From: Nitrospinales bacterium | GTDB taxonomy: Bacteria; Nitrospinota_A; UBA7883; JACRGQ01 | Assembly (NCBI GenBank): GCA_023248535.1 | Contig: JAHFEJ010000025.1 | Location: 1 to 38,713, forward strand | Direction of reading: 5' to 3' | Length of the DNA stretch: 38,713 nt | In this document: positions 15,994-32,216 of the stretch, piece by piece | Layout: each line of letters opens with the position of its first letter | How positions within the stretch are numbered: position 1 is the stretch's first letter | The notes under the pieces: generated by a model | The model's database searches: none | The model's input: the letters and a program-made list of their open reading frames with translations, nothing else | Told to the model about the DNA's origin: nothing | Position numbers and translations under genes: made by a program

Positions 15994-16115
15994 CACGAAG
16001 CTGAAAAGGGGGCTAAAACCACCCCCGTTTCAGGGACAAAACCGGTCCGTTAAAACTCCCGAAAATGCGAAAAATATACCCCGCGAAAAATATCGAGGGC
16101 ATCCTTCCGGAAGAC

Positions 16116-16144
16116 TTGACAGAAAAGCGCTCCGGCCTTATAGT
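16116..16144 (+). promoter_or_regulatory. Sigma-70 promoter of arsR
   Basis: TTGACA (16116-16121), a 17-base spacer and TATAGT (16139-16144) make a near-consensus promoter. Transcription should start about base 16151, immediately before the ATG at 16152, so the mRNA is probably leaderless. This also argues for that ATG over the in-frame ATG at 16065, which lies upstream of the promoter. The ArsR product may bind here. Confidence 0.85.
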
Positions 16145-16151
16145 TCTAATT

Positions 16152-16526
16152 ATGTCGAAGTATAGAAGTAAAACCGCAAAGGCGGCCGCCGCCTTCGGGG
16201 CGCTCTCCAACCCCCACCGGCTGCAGGCGTTCCTCCGCTTGCTGGATTGCTGTCCCCCCGGTACCGCCTGCTCTATCGGCAGCGGCGAGGCGGCCATGTA
16301 CGTGGGGGAACTGGGAAAAGGGCTTGGTATCGCCCCTTCGACACTGTCCCACCACATCAAGGAACTGCGCGCCGCCGGGCTTATCAGCCTGACGCGGCGC
16401 GGGAAGAACATCGAATGCCGCGTGGAGCCGGAGCGGGTGGCCGAATTGGCCGCTCTCTTCGCGCCCGCAACCGGCGTGGGCATTAACAAGGCTGATAAGG
16501 AATTGACGCGATGGAAAAAGAAGTGA
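16152..16526 (+). CDS. arsR: ArsR-family metalloregulator, probable arsenic-responsive repressor
   Basis: The 124-residue winged-helix protein has a recognition region VGELGKGLGIAPSTLSHHIKEL (about 51-72) typical of ArsR/SmtB repressors. A cluster Cys33-Cys34-x5-Cys40 (CCPPGTAC) just before it is a plausible As(III) site, placed differently from the CVC pair of E. coli ArsR. Binding of arsenite would release the operator. I start it at ATG 16152, eight bases after a strong -10 box, because the upstream ATG (16065) would put the promoter inside the gene and add a 29-residue extension not seen in the family. It overlaps arsM by 16 bases. Confidence 0.9.
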   Translation: MSKYRSKTAKAAAAFGALSNPHRLQAFLRLLDCCPPGTACSIGSGEAAMYVGELGKGLGIAPSTLSHHIKELRAAGLISLTRRGKNIECRVEPERVAELAALFAPATGVGINKADKELTRWKKK

Positions 16527-17353
16527 ACAACGACGCGGTGCGCCAGGGCGTGCGCGCCAACTATGCCCAGGTCGCCCGTTTCGGCAATATCGGCGGATGC
16601 TGCGCCCCCGCTGATGGCGCGGCGGAAAGCTCCTGCTGCGGCGGCGAAAACGATCCCGCGGCCGAGCACGCCAAGATGGCGTCGCTGGCGATGGGCTATA
16701 GCGCCGCCGATCTCGATGGCTTGCCCGAAGGGGCGAATATGGGACTCGGCTGCGGCAACCCGCAGGCCATCGCCTCCATCCGCGCGGGCGAAACGGTGCT
16801 CGATCTCGGCTCCGGCGGCGGGTTCGACGCGTTTCTCGCCATGCGGCAAACCGGCTCGGAGGGCAGAGTGATCGGGGTCGACATGACGCCGGAGATGATA
16901 AGCAAGGCGCGCAAAAACGCCGTCACGCTGAACGCCGGTAACGTCGAGTTCCGCCTTGGAGAACTCGAGCATCTGCCGGTCTCCGACGACATGGCGGACG
17001 TGATCATCTCGAACTGTGTCATCAACCTGTCGCCCGACAAGGCGCAGGTGTTCCGCGAGGCGTACCGCGCGCTGAAGCCGGGTGGGCGGCTGGCGGTCTC
17101 TGATGTGGTGGCCACGGCGCAGCTGCCGGATGACGTGCTGAACGATCTTAAAATGCTGAGCGGCTGCATCGCGGGGGCCGCGTTTATCACCGACATTGAA
17201 CGGATGTTGCGCGAGGCCGGATTTGAAGATGTCCGCGTCACCGCGAAGGAAGAGAGCCGCGAACTTATCCGCGCTTGGGCGCCGGGCCGCCGCGTGGAGG
17301 AGTATGTGGTATCGGCCAATATTCAGGCGGCGAAGCCGAAAAGCCGCGCCTGA
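16511..17353 (+). CDS. arsM: Arsenite S-adenosylmethionine methyltransferase ArsM
   Basis: The 280-residue enzyme methylates As(III) using SAM. Motif I is VLDLGSGGGFDAFLA (96-110). Arsenic-binding cysteines are Cys169 (SNCVINLSPDK) and Cys219 (SGCIAGA), 50 residues apart as in characterised ArsM, plus Cys81 (GLGCGNP). N-terminal CC pairs at 30-31 and 42-43 are common in bacterial members. Volatile or less toxic methylarsenicals would be the products. It starts inside the 3' end of arsR, so the two are coupled and both probably answer to arsenic. Confidence 0.95.
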   Translation: MEKEVNNDAVRQGVRANYAQVARFGNIGGCCAPADGAAESSCCGGENDPAAEHAKMASLAMGYSAADLDGLPEGANMGLGCGNPQAIASIRAGETVLDLGSGGGFDAFLAMRQTGSEGRVIGVDMTPEMISKARKNAVTLNAGNVEFRLGELEHLPVSDDMADVIISNCVINLSPDKAQVFREAYRALKPGGRLAVSDVVATAQLPDDVLNDLKMLSGCIAGAAFITDIERMLREAGFEDVRVTAKEESRELIRAWAPGRRVEEYVVSANIQAAKPKSRA

Positions 17354-17363
17354 TTTTTAGAGG

Positions 17364-17783
17364 TTACGCCGCGGCGGGTTTGGATCCGCATCCCTTGCGG
17401 CAAGGGCAATAGGCGAACGCGACCGCGGCCCAAAAGCCGAACCGGAACGTCATGGCGATAACCGTTCGCATTTCATATGCGCCGCCCATCAGTATGGTGA
17501 CGCCGAATGCGATGAACACTACGAGTGTGGCGGCAGCAATGGCCGCGGAGACCGCGCCCGCCCATCGCGCGGATTTCCAGATCCCGATTCCCGCGGCGAT
17601 GTACGCAAAACCGGCCATGAAATTGAACCAGACGACGAACGGCACATAATTGCCGGCGGTCTGGCGGGCGGCTTCGGAAAATAAAACCGATCCCCCCGCT
17701 TTTACGGTCAACAATCCAAACAGTATCGCGAATATTGAAAGGGGCTTTGCCCACTTCGGCGCGGTCGAATGGTCTTTATCCAC
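17364..17783 (-). CDS. Small four-helix membrane protein of unknown function
   Basis: The protein has 139 residues and starts at GTG 17783 within the last codons of the upstream double-receiver gene (8-base overlap), so translation is coupled. Four hydrophobic segments are visible at about 14-33, 45-68, 74-96 and 105-124. A Cys-rich basic tail (CPCRKGCGSK) follows, which would lie in the cytoplasm if the N-terminus is inside. No family is recognised. It is the last gene of the signalling cluster and is convergent with arsM across 10 bases. Confidence 0.75.
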   Translation of the reverse strand: MDKDHSTAPKWAKPLSIFAILFGLLTVKAGGSVLFSEAARQTAGNYVPFVVWFNFMAGFAYIAAGIGIWKSARWAGAVSAAIAAATLVVFIAFGVTILMGGAYEMRTVIAMTFRFGFWAAVAFAYCPCRKGCGSKPAAA

Positions 17784-18690
17784 GGATTTGGTATATGCTG
17801 GAAATGATCGTGGGGAGGCTCATCTCGATATCGTGTCCGGGCCCCGGCTTGAGGATCACATCGTCGATGTGCGATTCAGGGCGCAGGAGATCGGAGGCCT
17901 TGTCCGGCGAGCCGGTGATGACGATAAATCGGGGCATTTTATCCTTCAGGTTTTTCCGCATCGCATTCACCAGTCCGAAGGCGTCGCCGTCCGGCAAAAT
18001 ATTGTCGGAGATGACAATGGCGAAGGGGCCGTCGTTTTCAACGGCCCGCAGCGCTTCCCGCATGTCCTTGGCGGCGGCGACCTGGAGGCCGATGGAGCGC
18101 AAAAATATGCCGAACCGCTGCTGTTGGGCCTCGGATGATAACACCAGCAGCAGCCGGACATTGTTTGCCAGCAAGGGGCCTTTGCGCTGGATGAGGTCCA
18201 TGAACGCTTTGGAGAGCAGGTGATCCCGCTCCAAAATCTGCGGGGAGAAGATGTTGGGAACAGTTCCATGTTCGTATGCCCGCAAGCGGTTGCTGGCGAC
18301 CAGTGTGGACATTTTTTTCTCCAAGCGGGCGCGGCAGCGAAGTATCGCCTGCTGGAAAAGGTCGTCGTTAACCGGCAATTCCACGAACGCGGAGAGGCCG
18401 GCGTTGTACGCCGCCACCATGTTTGGGATGGACGGTTGCCGGTCGGCGATGACCGTTTCAAACGGCGTCCGCAGCGTTTCGAGGTTGTTGATTACCTTCA
18501 CGCAGAAAAGATCATCCCACACCGGTGGAATGAAAATGATGCCGGGGTCGCGGTCTTTGAACAGCGTGATTGCGGCTTCGGCATCCTGCGGCATTTCCAC
18601 TTCCTCGGCGGGGATGTCGCTGGTTTTCAGCGCCGCCACGAGGGAAGGGTCAGGCCGGAATGTTCCGCTTATGATGAAGTAAGAGTTCAC
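17776..18690 (-). CDS. Double receiver-domain protein (one degenerate, one probable REC)
   Basis: The 304-residue cytoplasmic protein has two CheY-like folds and no output domain. The first (about 1-120) has IIFIPPVWDD in place of the phosphoacceptor loop and so seems unable to be phosphorylated. The second (about 175-304) keeps Asp229 in VISDNILPDGDAF, a Thr/Ser switch (VITGS, about 257-261) and Lys281 (LKPG). Its first acidic pair is replaced by SSE, so phosphorylation is uncertain. It follows the permuted cheA gene by two bases and is a likely partner, perhaps an adaptor or phosphate sink. Confidence 0.85.
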   Translation of the reverse strand: MNSYFIISGTFRPDPSLVAALKTSDIPAEEVEMPQDAEAAITLFKDRDPGIIFIPPVWDDLFCVKVINNLETLRTPFETVIADRQPSIPNMVAAYNAGLSAFVELPVNDDLFQQAILRCRARLEKKMSTLVASNRLRAYEHGTVPNIFSPQILERDHLLSKAFMDLIQRKGPLLANNVRLLLVLSSEAQQQRFGIFLRSIGLQVAAAKDMREALRAVENDGPFAIVISDNILPDGDAFGLVNAMRKNLKDKMPRFIVITGSPDKASDLLRPESHIDDVILKPGPGHDIEMSLPTIISSIYQIRG

Positions 18691-18692
18691 GG

Positions 18693-20804
18693 CTATTCGA
18701 ACCTGCTGAATTTGACCGCCTGCGCGCCGTAGTGCCGCGTCAGTATCCGCACGAGGGATTCTTCCAGCAGGCCGGGCTCCACGGGGCTGGCGAAAAGGAC
18801 TTTCAGCTTTCCGTACATGTAACCTTTTTCGATATCTTCCAGCGGCGGCACGGTTCCCAACACATCGCCGATTTCGGTGAAACGTTTATAGATAAGGCAG
18901 GCCACAAGGAACGCGGGTTGTTTCCCCGCGTCGAATTCGATGTAGGCCATGTAGGCGGGAATCATTTCTTTTTTGTATTTGTTGGCGCGGTACCACGCCT
19001 CATGCGAGAGCTGTACCGTTTCGGCGGTTACGTCGGTTTCGCGGCGGATCTGGGGCTTTTCCTCGGGCAGGATTTTCGCGCTCGCCTCGAGGATGGCGGT
19101 GGAAGGCTGATCGGCCCACTGCCCGGCTTTGCTGGTGCGGACGACCTCTTCGATATAGGCCACGCCGTCCATAAGTATGTCCATCACCTCGGCGCTCATC
19201 TGCATTTTGCCGCCGCGTACGCGGTCCAGCACCGATTCAACGCTGTGGATGGTGGCCCCGCCTTTGGCGAAACCGATCATGATGAAGTTGCCCTTGATGG
19301 TGTGGTACATGCGGAAGGCTTTATTGATATGTTCGGTATTTCCCGTATCCGATTCCAGCGCGAAAAGCGCTTCATTGAGTGCGGGCATGAGTTTTTCGAT
19401 TTCCACGATGAATTCCTGCGTGGCGGCCGCGGCATCCTCGGCCCGGATGCCGCCGGTGTCGCCAAGCGAGGCTGTTTCGGTCTCGGCGGGGGCGCGCTGT
19501 TCCCCCGCTTCGGGGATTTTAACCGTGGCGGCCGATGCGCCCTTTTTTCCAATCTCCGGCGTTTTCCGCAATCCCCGTACGCCCCGTTTGCCGATGGCCC
19601 GGTCTATGAGCGACGGCACGTCGACGATGAATCCCAATTTCCGTCCCCCCAGAATGGTGGTGCCTGAAAGGCCGTTTACGGTCAGCGCGCCGTTAAAGGG
19701 GATGATGACAAGTTTCTGCGGTGAAAAGAATTCCGATATCTTCAGGGCTATCGTGAACCCTTTGTGGTCGACCACCAGCACTTGCACCAGGCCGCTTGTG
19801 TCCTCGAGGGGCCCTTTGTCAATGACTTCGTTAAGGCTGTACAGCGGCAGGAGGTGTCCCAGATACTCTATCATCTCCCCCTTTTGCATCGAGGTGTGCA
19901 GGTCTTTGCGCTCCACCGAGATGGTGGTGACCACGCTGTTAATGGGGAATGCGAAGAAGAAATTGCCCGAACGGACCACCAGCGCGTCCAGTATGTTGAC
20001 GGCGGATATCAGCGGCACGCGGAAGGTGAACAGGCTCCCTTTGCCGGGCGTGCTGCGGAATGTGACGATCCCCCCCATGCCGGTGATCTGCTCGCGCACC
20101 ACGTCCATGCCCACCCCGCGCCCGGAAACTTCGGAAACCGCGGCCGTGGTGGAGACCCCCGGCATGCACATGATCTCCAGCGCGTCATCTTCGGTAAACG
20201 GGTCTTCCTGCTTGATGATACCCATGGCGATGGCCTTTTGCCGCAATGCCTGGATGTCCACCCCTTTGCCGTCGTCCTCGATTTCAATGAAGGTTTCGTT
20301 TTCGCTGTTGGATGCGCGCAGCGACACCACTCCCTCTTCCGGTTTTCCGGCGCGTTGGCGGGTGAGGGTGTCTTCAATGCCGTGATCGATGGCATTGCGC
20401 AACTGGTGGGAGATGGGGTCGTAAAGTTTCTCCACGATGGTCTTGTCCACGGTGGTCGATTCCCCCTCGAACTCGAAGCGGACCCGTTTGCCGGTTTTGC
20501 GGGCGATGTCGCGCACGAGGCGGCGGGTGCGGAAAGAAAGGTCCGTCAGGTCCACGGTGCGGATGGCCTGCACCAGATGGTGCAGGTTCGACGAGATAAT
20601 GGCGGAGGTGCTGGCGAGGTCCTTTGCCCCCTCCACCGTTTCACGGGCGACCGGCGTTTTTTTGTCGTGGAGCTGCTGAAGATGTTTGTATGTCAGGTCG
20701 AGGTTGCTGGAGGTGATGATCACCTCGCCGGCCAGCGTTAACAGCTGGTCGAGGTTTGCCAGCTTCACCAGCATGTTTTCGGCTTGGCCGTGTTTTTCTG
20801 TCAT
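18693..20804 (-). CDS. CheA-type histidine kinase with permuted domain order (P3-P4-P5-P1-P2-like)
   Basis: The 703-residue protein starts straight with a CheA dimerisation domain (about 10-98; LANLDQLLTLAGEVIITSSN). The ATPase follows, with N-box QLRNAIDHG (134-142), DDGKG (177-181) and GRGVGMDVV (229-237), then a CheW-like P5 domain (about 268-402). After an Ala/Pro-rich linker come the Hpt domain (about 460-565) with phosphoacceptor His501 in RMYHTIKGNF, and a ferredoxin-like domain (about 615-700) resembling the one that normally follows Hpt. In ordinary CheA the Hpt comes first. All catalytic residues seem intact. ATG 20804 follows GGGAG. It lies between a CheY-like gene and a double-receiver gene; no cheW, cheR, cheB or receptor gene is nearby, so its stimulus is unknown. 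Confidence 0.9.
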   Translation of the reverse strand: MTEKHGQAENMLVKLANLDQLLTLAGEVIITSSNLDLTYKHLQQLHDKKTPVARETVEGAKDLASTSAIISSNLHHLVQAIRTVDLTDLSFRTRRLVRDIARKTGKRVRFEFEGESTTVDKTIVEKLYDPISHQLRNAIDHGIEDTLTRQRAGKPEEGVVSLRASNSENETFIEIEDDGKGVDIQALRQKAIAMGIIKQEDPFTEDDALEIMCMPGVSTTAAVSEVSGRGVGMDVVREQITGMGGIVTFRSTPGKGSLFTFRVPLISAVNILDALVVRSGNFFFAFPINSVVTTISVERKDLHTSMQKGEMIEYLGHLLPLYSLNEVIDKGPLEDTSGLVQVLVVDHKGFTIALKISEFFSPQKLVIIPFNGALTVNGLSGTTILGGRKLGFIVDVPSLIDRAIGKRGVRGLRKTPEIGKKGASAATVKIPEAGEQRAPAETETASLGDTGGIRAEDAAAATQEFIVEIEKLMPALNEALFALESDTGNTEHINKAFRMYHTIKGNFIMIGFAKGGATIHSVESVLDRVRGGKMQMSAEVMDILMDGVAYIEEVVRTSKAGQWADQPSTAILEASAKILPEEKPQIRRETDVTAETVQLSHEAWYRANKYKKEMIPAYMAYIEFDAGKQPAFLVACLIYKRFTEIGDVLGTVPPLEDIEKGYMYGKLKVLFASPVEPGLLEESLVRILTRHYGAQAVKFSRFE

Positions 20805-20819: not shown

Positions 20820-21218
20820 CTACGCTGCGGGGAGCACGGTGGTGGTGATACGCGCGATCACCCTTTCCACCAGGTCCTGTTCTATCGGTTTGGAAATGTA
20901 ATCGTCGGCGCCGGTGCGCAACCCTTTTATGATGTAGTTGCCGTCCACATGGGTCGATACTACCACGATGGGCAAGGTTCGCAGTTCCGGGATTTTGCGG
21001 ATCTCAAAGCAGAGCTCGAAGCCGTCCATCTCCGGCATGACGATGTCGGTGAAGACGATGTCGACCCTGTTGGTGCGCAATACATCGAGGGCTTCAACGC
21101 CATTGGCGGCTTCCAAAACCTGGATGCCGAGAGTTTGCAGGATGACCACCAGCTTTTTACGGGTATTTTCGTAATCGTCAACGGCAAGGGCCTTCAGGCC
21201 TTCAAATGTTCCCGGCAT
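20820..21218 (-). CDS. Single-domain CheY-like response regulator
   Basis: From ATG 21218 the protein is 132 residues, the usual CheY size. GGGGAG lies about ten bases upstream; a longer frame back to 21296 lacks a good start. Acidic residues AVDDYE, phosphoacceptor Asp in VFTDIVMPEMDG, Ser in VVSTH and Lys in YISKPI are all present, so it should be phosphorylatable. The stop lies 15 bases before the permuted CheA gene, the probable donor of phosphate. It has no DNA-binding or enzyme domain, so it should act by protein contact. Confidence 0.9.
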   Translation of the reverse strand: MPGTFEGLKALAVDDYENTRKKLVVILQTLGIQVLEAANGVEALDVLRTNRVDIVFTDIVMPEMDGFELCFEIRKIPELRTLPIVVVSTHVDGNYIIKGLRTGADDYISKPIEQDLVERVIARITTTVLPAA

Positions 21219-21344
21219 ATCCGCCTTGCTCCCCAAAATGGTTTCCGCCTCAATGACACACGGCAACCCGCTGGATTTCTTCTCCCATACTACCAAATTT
21301 ACCTTCGCAGAGAACTATTTTAATTCTCCCGGTTTGCCGGGGAT

Positions 21345-26219: not shown

Positions 26220-27611
26220 ATGCGTGAAATAGCGGTTGTTGATATCAGGGACGGCTTTAGCGCCGCCGCCGTGTATGCCGAAGGGCTGCAAGGGGGGGGC
26301 GTGAAGGGGACGGCTTTGGTAAAGGGTTCCTTCCTGCAGGAAGCGACCGCCACGCAGGTAAAAGAGGCCCTTGGCCGCATTTCCCCCGATCCCGATTATC
26401 TGATGCTCCTGTTGCCGCGCTCCCTGTTCCACCTTGCTTCCACGCATATCCCCGCCCGCGATGCCGAAATGCTGGCGCGGATGATGGAATTCGAGGTGCC
26501 GCGCCATTTTCCCATTCCCGCCGACCGCCTTGTCCACTCCTACACGGTGGCGGAGCGGACGGATGACGGTTACACGGTGAACCTGGCGGGGCTGAAGCTG
26601 GAGGATTTCAACGCCTATTACAACGCCGCCCGCGCGGCGGGATTGCATGCCGATATTGTTTCGATCTTTTCCGGGACGTTTTTACCGGCGGCGGGCGATG
26701 CGCCCCGCGCTTCCGCCGACATCGCGCGCGACGGCGTTGAGCTGACTTTGGCGCGCGGAAAAAAGGTTGTCTATTCCCGCTGGTGCCGCTTCAAACCGGA
26801 GTTGAACGAAGAAGATTTTTTCAGCGCCGGCATTCTGGCGGATACCTCCGCCCCGCAAGTGGCCGATCAGATCGCCGCCGAACTCAACCGGCTCAAGCTG
26901 GTGACCGGTATCGAAAATCTTCCGGAATACCTGGATACCCTCTCGCTCACCGGCGGCGCGCCGCGGCTGCGGCAGGCGGTGGCAAACCGCCTTGCTTCAC
27001 GGATGGAACTGAAAAACGCCAAAGTGAAAACCCTCCCCGCGGAAAAAGAAAATGACGGTCTGGAATATGCCGCCGCCGCGGCCGCCGCGGCCGGACTTTA
27101 TCAGGAAGGGGCGGCATTTAATTTTATTCCCAAAACCCATCGGCGGCTGCGGCATCACGTCGCGCGGCGGCTGTTGCGCGGCGCGGCGGCGGTTATTGCC
27201 GCGTTGCTGGTCGTGTGGGCAGGCACCGCATACGGCATACGCTGGAAGGCGGTGCGCGGCTTCGAGGCGGAACTGGCCGCGTTAAAGCGGGAGGCCCGCA
27301 AAGGGGAAGGGCTGCAACTGAAGATGGGGGAATACCAGGCCCAGTTCGACGGGTTCAACGCTTTTGCCGCCCAACGGTCGTTTAACCTCGAAATGCTTAC
27401 GGCACTCACGGGCGGGTTGCCGCGCGACACCTTTATCACCGAGCTTGAATTCCGTCCGTGCGTGGTCGCCGTTTCCGGCATCTCCGCCAATGCCACCGCC
27501 CTGCTAAAGGTGATGGAGGGGACGGGCGGCATGAAAAACGCCCAAATGCTGGCGGCGGTTCAGACCACCCCCACAGGGGAACGCTTCAAGCTGGGGATGG
27601 AGTGCAAATGA
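26220..27611 (+). CDS. GspL/PilM-PilN-like secretion or pilus assembly protein
   Basis: The 463-residue protein has a cytoplasmic actin-like N-terminal part (about 1-300) with VVDIRDGFSAAAVYAE at the start and SLTGGAPRLRQAVANRL near 250, as in GspL and PilM. One membrane helix (about 317-337) follows, then an extracytoplasmic coiled and ferredoxin-like tail (LEMLTALTGGLPRDTFITELEF), as in GspL/PilN. It would belong to the inner-membrane platform of a type II secretion or type IV pilus machine. The downstream GspM/PilO-like gene overlaps its stop (ATGATG). No other machine genes are adjacent; the operon continues into rimP-nusA. Confidence 0.8.
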   Translation: MREIAVVDIRDGFSAAAVYAEGLQGGGVKGTALVKGSFLQEATATQVKEALGRISPDPDYLMLLLPRSLFHLASTHIPARDAEMLARMMEFEVPRHFPIPADRLVHSYTVAERTDDGYTVNLAGLKLEDFNAYYNAARAAGLHADIVSIFSGTFLPAAGDAPRASADIARDGVELTLARGKKVVYSRWCRFKPELNEEDFFSAGILADTSAPQVADQIAAELNRLKLVTGIENLPEYLDTLSLTGGAPRLRQAVANRLASRMELKNAKVKTLPAEKENDGLEYAAAAAAAAGLYQEGAAFNFIPKTHRRLRHHVARRLLRGAAAVIAALLVVWAGTAYGIRWKAVRGFEAELAALKREARKGEGLQLKMGEYQAQFDGFNAFAAQRSFNLEMLTALTGGLPRDTFITELEFRPCVVAVSGISANATALLKVMEGTGGMKNAQMLAAVQTTPTGERFKLGMECK

Positions 27612-30566: not shown

Positions 30567-32054
30567 TCAGACCACGAAGCGCCGGACGCGGGGGATCAGC
30601 TCCTCCAGCAGGATTGGCTTGGTAATAAAGTCATCGGCTCCCAGGCTGAACGCCTTTTCCCGCGCGGCGATGTTCGAGTTAGCGGTAATGACCATCGTGG
30701 GAATGAGCTGTGTCTTCGGATTTTTCCGCAGTCGTTCCAACAATTCAAAGCCGTCCATCACCGGCATCATGGCATCGATGATCATCAGGTGGGGAAGGCC
30801 GTTTTCCAGCAGTGCAAGCGCCATTTCGCCGTTTTCCGCATCCAGAATATCCGCCCCAAGGCTTTCCAACAGGCCTTTAAGCATGATGCGCGTCATCCGG
30901 TCATCGTCCACAATAAGGATTTGAGGTTTCACTTCCGGCAGGGCGAGGTAAAAAACGCTGCCGGATCCCGGTCTGCTTTCAGCGCGGATTGTACCGTGAT
31001 GGGCCTGCATGATGTCCTGGGCCAGCGGCATGCCCAGCCCCGTCCCTTTTTCGCCGGCGGTGCCTGTGGTAGTGAATTTTTCCTCGTGCCTGAAAAGTTT
31101 GGCCAATGCCGCCGCGTCCATGCCGACCCCCTTGTCGCGCACGGCAAGAACGCCCGGCTCCTCCCGCGGCGCGAAAATATGGATCGTCCCGCCGGGGTTC
31201 GAGAACTTGATGGCGTTTGAAACAACGTTGAAAAGCGCCTCGCTAAACAGGTTGAGGTCGGCGTAAAGGCGCATGTGCGGGGGGATGTCGTTGGCGATAG
31301 CGACCCCTTTTTTGGCGGCGGCGTGCGCCAGGCGGTCCTTCACCGACATGGCGGCGAAGGCCGCATCGAAAAATCGCGGCTGGGGGATGATGGAGCCGGT
31401 CTGGATGCGGCTGATACTGATAAGCTCTTCCATCAAGGATGACATTTCTTCCACCGTTTCCAGCACCTGTTGCAGCGTCCGGGCGTGGCGGAGGGGGAGC
31501 GGCTCATCCGTATCCATCGCCGCGATTTTGATCCGGGTGCTGACGGATGTGAGGGGGGATTGCAGATCGTGCGCCACAACGGAAAGGAATTTATCTTTCA
31601 GGCGGGTGGCGTCCTCCGCGCGGCGGCGGGCCTCCTTGAGTTCGCTTTCCACATGTTGGCGTTCGATGGCGTAACGGACGGTGTGGGGAAGTATGGCCAT
31701 GCTGTTCTCCCCTTTTATCAGGTAATCCTGCGCTCCCTGGTGCACCGCCTTTATGGAAATTTCTTCGTCGTCGAGGCCGGATAATATGATGACCGGCATA
31801 TCCGGGGCCGCCGCGCGGATCCGAAGCAGCGAGTTGATCCCCTGTTCATCGGGAAGCGCGAGGTCCAGCAACACGGCGGCGAATCGTCTTTTTTCAAGCT
31901 CCAGCAGGGCGAGGGCTTCGGCGAGGCGCTCCACCTGGGTGATTTCGAAGGATATCTTTCCGCTATTGGCAAGGGCTTCCCGCGCCATGTAGGCATCCGC
32001 CGGGTTGTCCTCCACCAGCAGGATGTTGATGATGCTGTCCATCGATTTGCCCAT
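30567..32054 (-). CDS. Hybrid histidine kinase, REC-HisKA-HATPase-REC
   Basis: The 495-residue soluble protein starts at ATG 32054, seven bases after GGAG. The first receiver (about 8-128) has Asp64 in LLDLALPDEQG. The kinase core has His162 in VVAHDLQSPL, N-box around Asn280 (NVVSNAIKFSNPGG), DKGVG (307-311) and GTGLGM (337-342). The second receiver (about 377-495) has DDD, Asp427 in IIDAMMPVMDG and Lys479 (ITKP). There is no membrane segment or sensor domain, so the input is probably phosphorylation of the first receiver by another kinase. It is not part of a visible operon and diverges from the purine permease. Confidence 0.93.
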   Translation of the reverse strand: MGKSMDSIINILLVEDNPADAYMAREALANSGKISFEITQVERLAEALALLELEKRRFAAVLLDLALPDEQGINSLLRIRAAAPDMPVIILSGLDDEEISIKAVHQGAQDYLIKGENSMAILPHTVRYAIERQHVESELKEARRRAEDATRLKDKFLSVVAHDLQSPLTSVSTRIKIAAMDTDEPLPLRHARTLQQVLETVEEMSSLMEELISISRIQTGSIIPQPRFFDAAFAAMSVKDRLAHAAAKKGVAIANDIPPHMRLYADLNLFSEALFNVVSNAIKFSNPGGTIHIFAPREEPGVLAVRDKGVGMDAAALAKLFRHEEKFTTTGTAGEKGTGLGMPLAQDIMQAHHGTIRAESRPGSGSVFYLALPEVKPQILIVDDDRMTRIMLKGLLESLGADILDAENGEMALALLENGLPHLMIIDAMMPVMDGFELLERLRKNPKTQLIPTMVITANSNIAAREKAFSLGADDFITKPILLEELIPRVRRFVV

Positions 32055-32200
32055 TGCCATTCTCCTTATCCCTGCTTTCCCTAACAATATAACCCCCTCC
32101 CGCATGGCATTCAACCCGCGCGGAAAAACGCGCGAAGTCCGTCCGGATGGAAAAAGTATGCTGGAAAGCATCTGTCTGTTAGGGCGGGGGATGCCGGGGG

Positions 32201-32206
32201 TATAAT
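32201..32206 (+). promoter_or_regulatory. -10 box of the purine permease gene
   Basis: A perfect TATAAT ends ten bases before the ATG at 32217, with no convincing -35 box and no Shine-Dalgarno. The predicted leader is about four bases. This leaves no room for a purine riboswitch. Confidence 0.55.
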
Positions 32207-32216
32207 CAATCATCTT

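Follow-up and report, generated by a model that had tools for sequence, protein, structure and literature searches.

A CheA-like histidine kinase with C-terminal P1 and P2 domains, encoded between two receiver genes in a class of Nitrospinota_A

Canonical CheA, as known from E. coli and Thermotoga maritima, is a five-domain kinase in which P1 and P2 stand N-terminal to P3. The survey of Berry, Andrianova and Zhulin (2023) recorded which domains are present, absent or duplicated in 13,673 CheA proteins, and took P1, P3, P4 and P5 as the core of the protein (PMC10782961). The passages of its main text that we consulted make no mention of a permuted domain order or of a C-terminal P1-P2. Literature retrieved under "circular permutation" concerned gene order, not CheA domains. 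Two other kinds of kinase are relevant here. In CheA3 and CheA4 of Rhodobacter (Cereibacter) sphaeroides, P1 is found apart from the P3-P4-P5 unit, so P1 need not be N-terminally attached. In the tripartite hybrid sensor kinases ArcB and BarA, the HPt domain lies C-terminal to the kinase core.

The kinase described here is encoded in a window of 38,713 nucleotides (the whole stretch of DNA that was analysed; contig JAHFEJ010000025.1, positions 1 to 38,713 of the forward strand) from assembly GCA_023248535.1 of a Nitrospinales bacterium (GTDB lineage Bacteria; Nitrospinota_A; UBA7883; JACRGQ01). With canonical CheA it shares the five domains, the P4 boxes, the His/Lys/His/Glu network of P1 and the internal order P3-P4-P5, and its P2 resembles that of T. 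maritima (1u0s). It differs from canonical CheA in having P1-P2 behind P5, in a P5 from which the Glu-Arg pair is missing along with further conserved residues, in a His at position 75 where the canonical proteins nearly always have Gln, and in having no cheW, cheR or receptor genes as neighbours. The separation of P1 from P3-P4-P5 recalls Rhodobacter; there, however, two proteins are involved and the P1 of CheA3 is N-terminal, whereas here all parts are fused in one protein. The position of the Hpt recalls ArcB and BarA but, unlike them, the chain gave no HisKA or Response_reg match in Pfam and contains P5 and P2, and its Hpt would be phosphorylated directly by P4.

Domain order of the kinase

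The initial annotation had read this gene as a CheA-like kinase with the order P3-P4-P5-P1-P2-like, and Pfam, sequence matches to PDB structures and AlphaFold2 all bear out that order. The ORF starts with ATG, and its parts are as follows.

18693..20804, minus strand: permuted CheA-like histidine kinase, 703 amino acids, P3-P4-P5-P1-P2 (ORF, Pfam, AlphaFold2)
20559..20762, minus strand: P3 dimerisation helices, residues 15-82 (Pfam H-kinase_dim sub-threshold; modelled helices 15-47 and 54-82)
20010..20549, minus strand: P4 ATPase/kinase domain, residues 86-265 (HATPase_c; canonical-conserved columns kept, see below)
19599..19994, minus strand: P5 CheW-like domain, residues 271-402 (CheW Pfam; conserved Glu/Arg pair missing at 293 and 315)
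19443..19589, minus strand: disordered linker from P5 to P1, residues 406-454 (pLDDT <50; 53-75 amino acids in orthologs)
19128..19442, minus strand: P1/Hpt four-helix domain, residues 455-559 (Pfam Hpt; AlphaFold2; PDB CheA P1 matches 1tqg and 2ld6)
19302..19304, minus strand: codon of the phospho-acceptor His501 (invariant in 20/20 orthologs)
19005..19127, minus strand: P1-P2 connector, residues 560-600 (length constancy of the stretch 560-616 in orthologs)
18699..19004, minus strand: P2 response-regulator docking domain, residues 601-702 (PF07194 in 19/20 orthologs; profile matches 1u0s)

Pfam placed HATPase_c at residues 131-265 (E=4.6e-14), CheW at 274-402 (E=2.2e-11) and Hpt at 463-547 (E=1.5e-8), and each of these domains was matched in 20 of 20 orthologs. 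The H-kinase_dim match at residues 13-64 was weak and below the cut-off in the window protein; the same domain was matched in 18 of the 20 orthologs. P2 (PF07194) was matched at residues 618-684 (E=3.8e-5; 24.1 bits, above the Pfam cut-off of 23), and the single ortholog in which it was missed is cut by a contig end. When the C-terminal domain was searched as a profile, T. maritima P2 was the sole significant solved structure (1u0s, E=4.5e-4), and the full kinase profile matched CheA P1 structures at residues 470-584. AlphaFold2 modelled the ATPase domain, the beta domain of P5, a ferredoxin-like P2 fold and the expected four-helix bundle around His501, the latter with a pLDDT of about 77-88. 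The model has a mean pLDDT of 71 and a pTM of 0.45, so the mutual placement of the domains in it is unreliable.

Set against the published definition of the CheA core (PMC10782961), P3, P4 and P5 are present in sequence order, as are an Hpt with its phospho-acceptor His and the ATPase boxes (G3 near-invariant); set against the canonical five-domain layout, P1-P2, at residues 455-702, lie behind P5 instead of N-terminal to P3. The kinase is a CheA in its composition and a new variant in its architecture.

The two connecting stretches are conserved in different ways. The long Ala/Pro linker noted previously between P5 and P1 holds up in its length but not in its composition: A+P content ranges from 9 to 39% across the orthologs, and we rejected a conserved Ala/Pro-rich linker. 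The P1-P2 stretch 560-616 is 57 residues long in 18 of the 19 complete orthologs and 59 in the other, with diverging sequence, a constancy of length that the P5-P1 linker does not share; the stretch may be structured.

Retained and lost residues

The N, G1 and G2 boxes of P4 are invariant among the orthologs and G3 nearly so, in agreement with the earlier description of the ATPase boxes as intact. In a conserved-column comparison (21 permuted rows, in which the window protein is counted twice, with 35 canonical CheA as the reference), P4 kept 42 of the 49 strongly conserved columns and lost none. In P1, the phospho-acceptor was correctly assigned to His501, which lies in the motif AFRMYHTIKGN and is invariant together with Lys504 in 20/20 proteins; His520 and Glu523 are invariant in 19/19 where present. 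The spacing of these four residues (+3, +19 and +22 from the first) is that of His48, Lys51, His67 and Glu70 in canonical P1. Because the catalytic residues of both the ATPase and P1 are retained, the permuted kinase would be an active autokinase. Near the P3/P4 junction, His75 (20580-20582, minus strand) is invariant in the permuted kinases, and Gln occupies this position in 32 of the 35 canonical CheA.

Judged against the same 35 proteins, P5 kept 5 of 14 conserved columns and lost 5. The lost columns include 293 and 315, which correspond in an alignment to E. coli CheW residues Glu38 and Arg62. Canonical P5 domains have the Glu in 34/35 and the Arg in 33/35, whereas the pair is absent from all 20 permuted kinases, which carry Ser, Thr or Ala at 293 and Leu at 315 (Thr293 and Leu315 in the window protein). 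In CheW, the Glu-Arg salt bridge holds the sites that bind receptor and kinase in alignment; R62A CheW still binds both partners, and chemotaxis of the cells is impaired (PMC3828127). By analogy with CheW, for which the role has been shown, the pair may do the same in P5. Since the permuted P5 is without this pair, which marks array-coupled CheA and CheW, the kinase would either be coupled to the chemoreceptor array in an altered way or receive its input via another partner.

Occurrence and origin of the domain order

The permuted kinase was found in 20 of 24 genomes of the phylum (E<1e-85, 35-91% identity). Nineteen of the matches are colinear over almost the entire query, and one stops at its contig end, after the start of the Hpt. 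Four genomes are without the kinase: two of these have no chemoreceptor match, one has two, and one is the sole genome from outside the class. Chemoreceptors are present in all 20 kinase-bearing genomes; of the three genomes of the class that are without the kinase, two have none. A contig scan, which reached close relatives only, returned one ortholog record; a Lachnospiraceae match from that scan proved to be an unrelated kinase.

The window's own assembly is a draft of 132 contigs, in which a misassembly or chance joining of two genes might have produced the unusual order. The probability of this is negligible, because independent assemblies carry the identical arrangement: the 19 other assemblies share the domain order (one truncated), the linker length and the operon, with the same neighbours, and one of them is a four-contig assembly rated 100% complete.

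In a core-domain tree of P3-P4-P5, the cores from phylum genomes comprised 20 permuted proteins, 31 with an N-terminal Hpt and 3 too truncated to tell. The permuted kinases form one clade with an SH-aLRT of 100 and a stem of 1.37 changes per site (quick tree method), and the domain order changes once on the tree. All 35 of the other CheA with a readable order are canonical. Inside the permuted clade, the window's family stands apart from the other families, in well-supported subclades, consistent with vertical inheritance. Given the single clade, its support and the one change of order, it appears that the domains were rearranged a single time and that the order was inherited vertically from then on. 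As part of the explanation that we favour (see below), the P1-P2 block had probably become C-terminal before the class's last common ancestor lived.

How the block came to be there is less clear-cut. A circular permutation at the P2/P3 junction, as originally proposed for this gene, predicts a colinear P1-P2 block, and this pattern was found: residues 465-687 of the window protein form a single aligned block with residues 22-254, the N-terminal P1-P2, of a canonical CheA from a plasmid record (E=1e-17), and residues 324-706 of that CheA align with the core of the permuted kinase. The proposal is supported to that extent, but the same pattern would result from the fusion of a P3-P4-P5 kinase gene, like that of Rhodobacter CheA4, to a downstream P1-P2 gene. 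According to the main text of the survey cited above, bipartite CheA systems are known in which the Hpt has a gene of its own (PMC10782961), and the source genome also has a free Hpt-CheW protein adjoining a CheA. Two observations count against fusion, neither of them decisive: P1 and P2 occur together and colinear with the canonical N-terminal P1-P2 (in one alignment), and no two-gene intermediate was seen among the genomes examined. We consider fusion a rather unlikely origin; it concerns the route only, and is compatible with the kinase mechanism proposed below.

Two sets of candidate permuted CheA were rejected. On plasmids, each of the eight records with a query coverage of at least 80% matches in two pieces, and the four plasmid-record loci that were read are canonical. 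A second permuted CheA in the source genome, suggested by the tblastn layout on contig C44, resolved into ORFs for an N-terminal-Hpt kinase and a separate Hpt-CheW gene downstream. The product of the latter (L011:2338-3225) is a free Hpt-CheW fusion of 296 amino acids, encoded just 3' of the canonical CheA.

The three-gene operon and its output

The kinase gene is flanked by two receiver genes.

20820..21218, minus strand: CheY-like single receiver, operon gene 1 (Response_reg E=9e-28)
17776..18690, minus strand: double receiver, 304 amino acids, operon gene 3 (receiver folds in model; PleD-like)
18379..18687, minus strand: REC1 pseudo-receiver of the double receiver, residues 2-104 (receiver fold modelled; phospho-site without Asp, strand 5 without Lys)
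17782..18159, minus strand: REC2 of the double receiver, residues 178-303 (retains Thr/Ser259 and the invariant Asp229 and Lys281; no acidic pair)

The CheY-like ORF, 20820-21296, reaches a TTG at 21296, and the conserved start is probably the ATG at 21218. Its five phosphorylation residues, namely the acidic pair, Asp84, Ser114 and Lys136, are invariant in 20/20 proteins. The CheY-like gene precedes the kinase in 20/20 loci and the double receiver (302-308 amino acids) follows it in every locus with a long enough contig; the operon genes overlap or lie 0-42 bp apart. Both neighbours had been recognised in the initial annotation, to which we add that REC1 is a pseudo-receiver. The double receiver has the two-receiver arrangement of PleD (double receiver-GGDEF), which is also its top fold match. 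It differs from PleD in consisting of receiver folds only, without the GGDEF domain of a diguanylate cyclase, in the pseudo-receiver nature of REC1 and in a REC2 that is without the acidic pair.

Neighbours beyond these three genes are common only within some genera or families, and a wider conserved neighbourhood was rejected, since nothing outside the operon is class-wide. As had been claimed for this locus, the window is without an MCP motif or a CheW- or CheR-like ORF. The 268,570 bases around the orthologs yielded no MCP motif, and neither a stand-alone CheW gene nor a stand-alone CheR gene turned up near the 20 loci, except for one CheV-like ORF (CheW-receiver, L047:4719-5672) about 1.5 kb beyond the operon, the sole CheW-like neighbour found. 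The same searches do recover CheW and CheR at the source genome's own canonical clusters. A promoter and terminator scan gave nothing above chance. Elsewhere in the window are a helix-turn-helix-like ORF (ArsR by inspection) beside a class-I methyltransferase (arsM by inspection) at 16065-17353, of which the methyltransferase domain alone was tested; a 463-amino acid ORF with no Pfam match at E<=1e-5 (26220-27611); and a hybrid histidine kinase that combines HisKA and HATPase_c with a pair of receiver domains (30567-32213, minus strand).

Neither FliM nor FlhA was found in genus g16 (three draft genomes, G020, G021 and G022), which retains the operon; both are present in g14 and g15, two genera from the family of g16. 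Flagella were probably lost in g16 and, because the operon is kept there without FliM or FlhA while these related genera have both, its output is likely to be non-flagellar in this one lineage, represented by draft genomes. The role outside chemotaxis suggested in the initial annotation is plausible on two indirect grounds, namely the retention of the operon in this genus and the loss of conserved residues from P5.

Our preferred explanation, to which we assign a probability of about 0.7, is that the protein is a vertically inherited permuted CheA, class II, catalytically intact, that signals to a CheY-like regulator of its own, with a coupling that is modified and an output that, in genus g16 at least, is non-flagellar. 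Building on what was observed, namely the order of the domains, the residues conserved and, in P5, lost, the single clade and the conserved operon, we suggest the following course for autophosphorylation, phosphotransfer, coupling and output. The kinase would dimerise via P3, and P4 would bind ATP and phosphorylate His501 of P1, which would be tethered by a flexible linker of 53-75 residues to the end of P5 rather than to the start of P3. The C-terminal P2 would dock the CheY-like receiver of the operon, a specificity that we assume from the operon itself. The phosphoryl group would then pass to Asp84 of this receiver, which would relay the signal to its target, a non-flagellar one in at least one genus. 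The PleD-like double receiver would most likely act as a scaffold, a competitor or an effector rather than as a standard phospho-switch.

Two other accounts place the kinase differently with respect to the chemoreceptor array. It could be an ordinary array-bound CheA paralogue, with a neutral domain order, that works in the same chemoreceptor/CheW arrays and governs motility (flagella or type IV pili) via the CheY-like protein. The P1 of CheA is linker-tethered and acts in trans, so domain order may matter little, and the survey's main text cites a liberated Hpt as functional (PMC10782961). The kinase is also confined to genomes with chemoreceptors and is missing where, within the class, receptors are absent or few, which fits a continued reliance on receptor arrays and counts against our preferred explanation. 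The pilT-family genes present in every kinase-bearing genome could supply a pilus output, although such genes occur in all the genomes and do not discriminate. What makes an array-bound paralogue appear doubtful overall, if quite possible, is that P5 has lost CheA/CheW signature residues and P4 none, that the loci contain no MCP or stand-alone CheW or CheR (the ORF in L047 excepted), and that the operon persists in a genus without FliM or FlhA. At the other extreme, the kinase might be off the array, with P5 taking its input from another protein (perhaps the double receiver) and the three genes forming a self-contained non-chemotactic phosphorelay made from chemotaxis parts. The shift of P1-P2 to the tail of P5 and the missing Glu-Arg pair would fit such a loss of array coupling; we nevertheless hold it to be rather unlikely, because the kinase is confined to chemoreceptor-bearing genomes.

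A permuted CheA of the kind we favour, occurring naturally and class-wide, with its kinase residues intact and its coupling domain altered, amounts to a natural experiment. It probes how far CheA function needs the attachment of P1 and the contacts of P5, and the kinase marks an uncharacterised signalling operon in this bacterial class.
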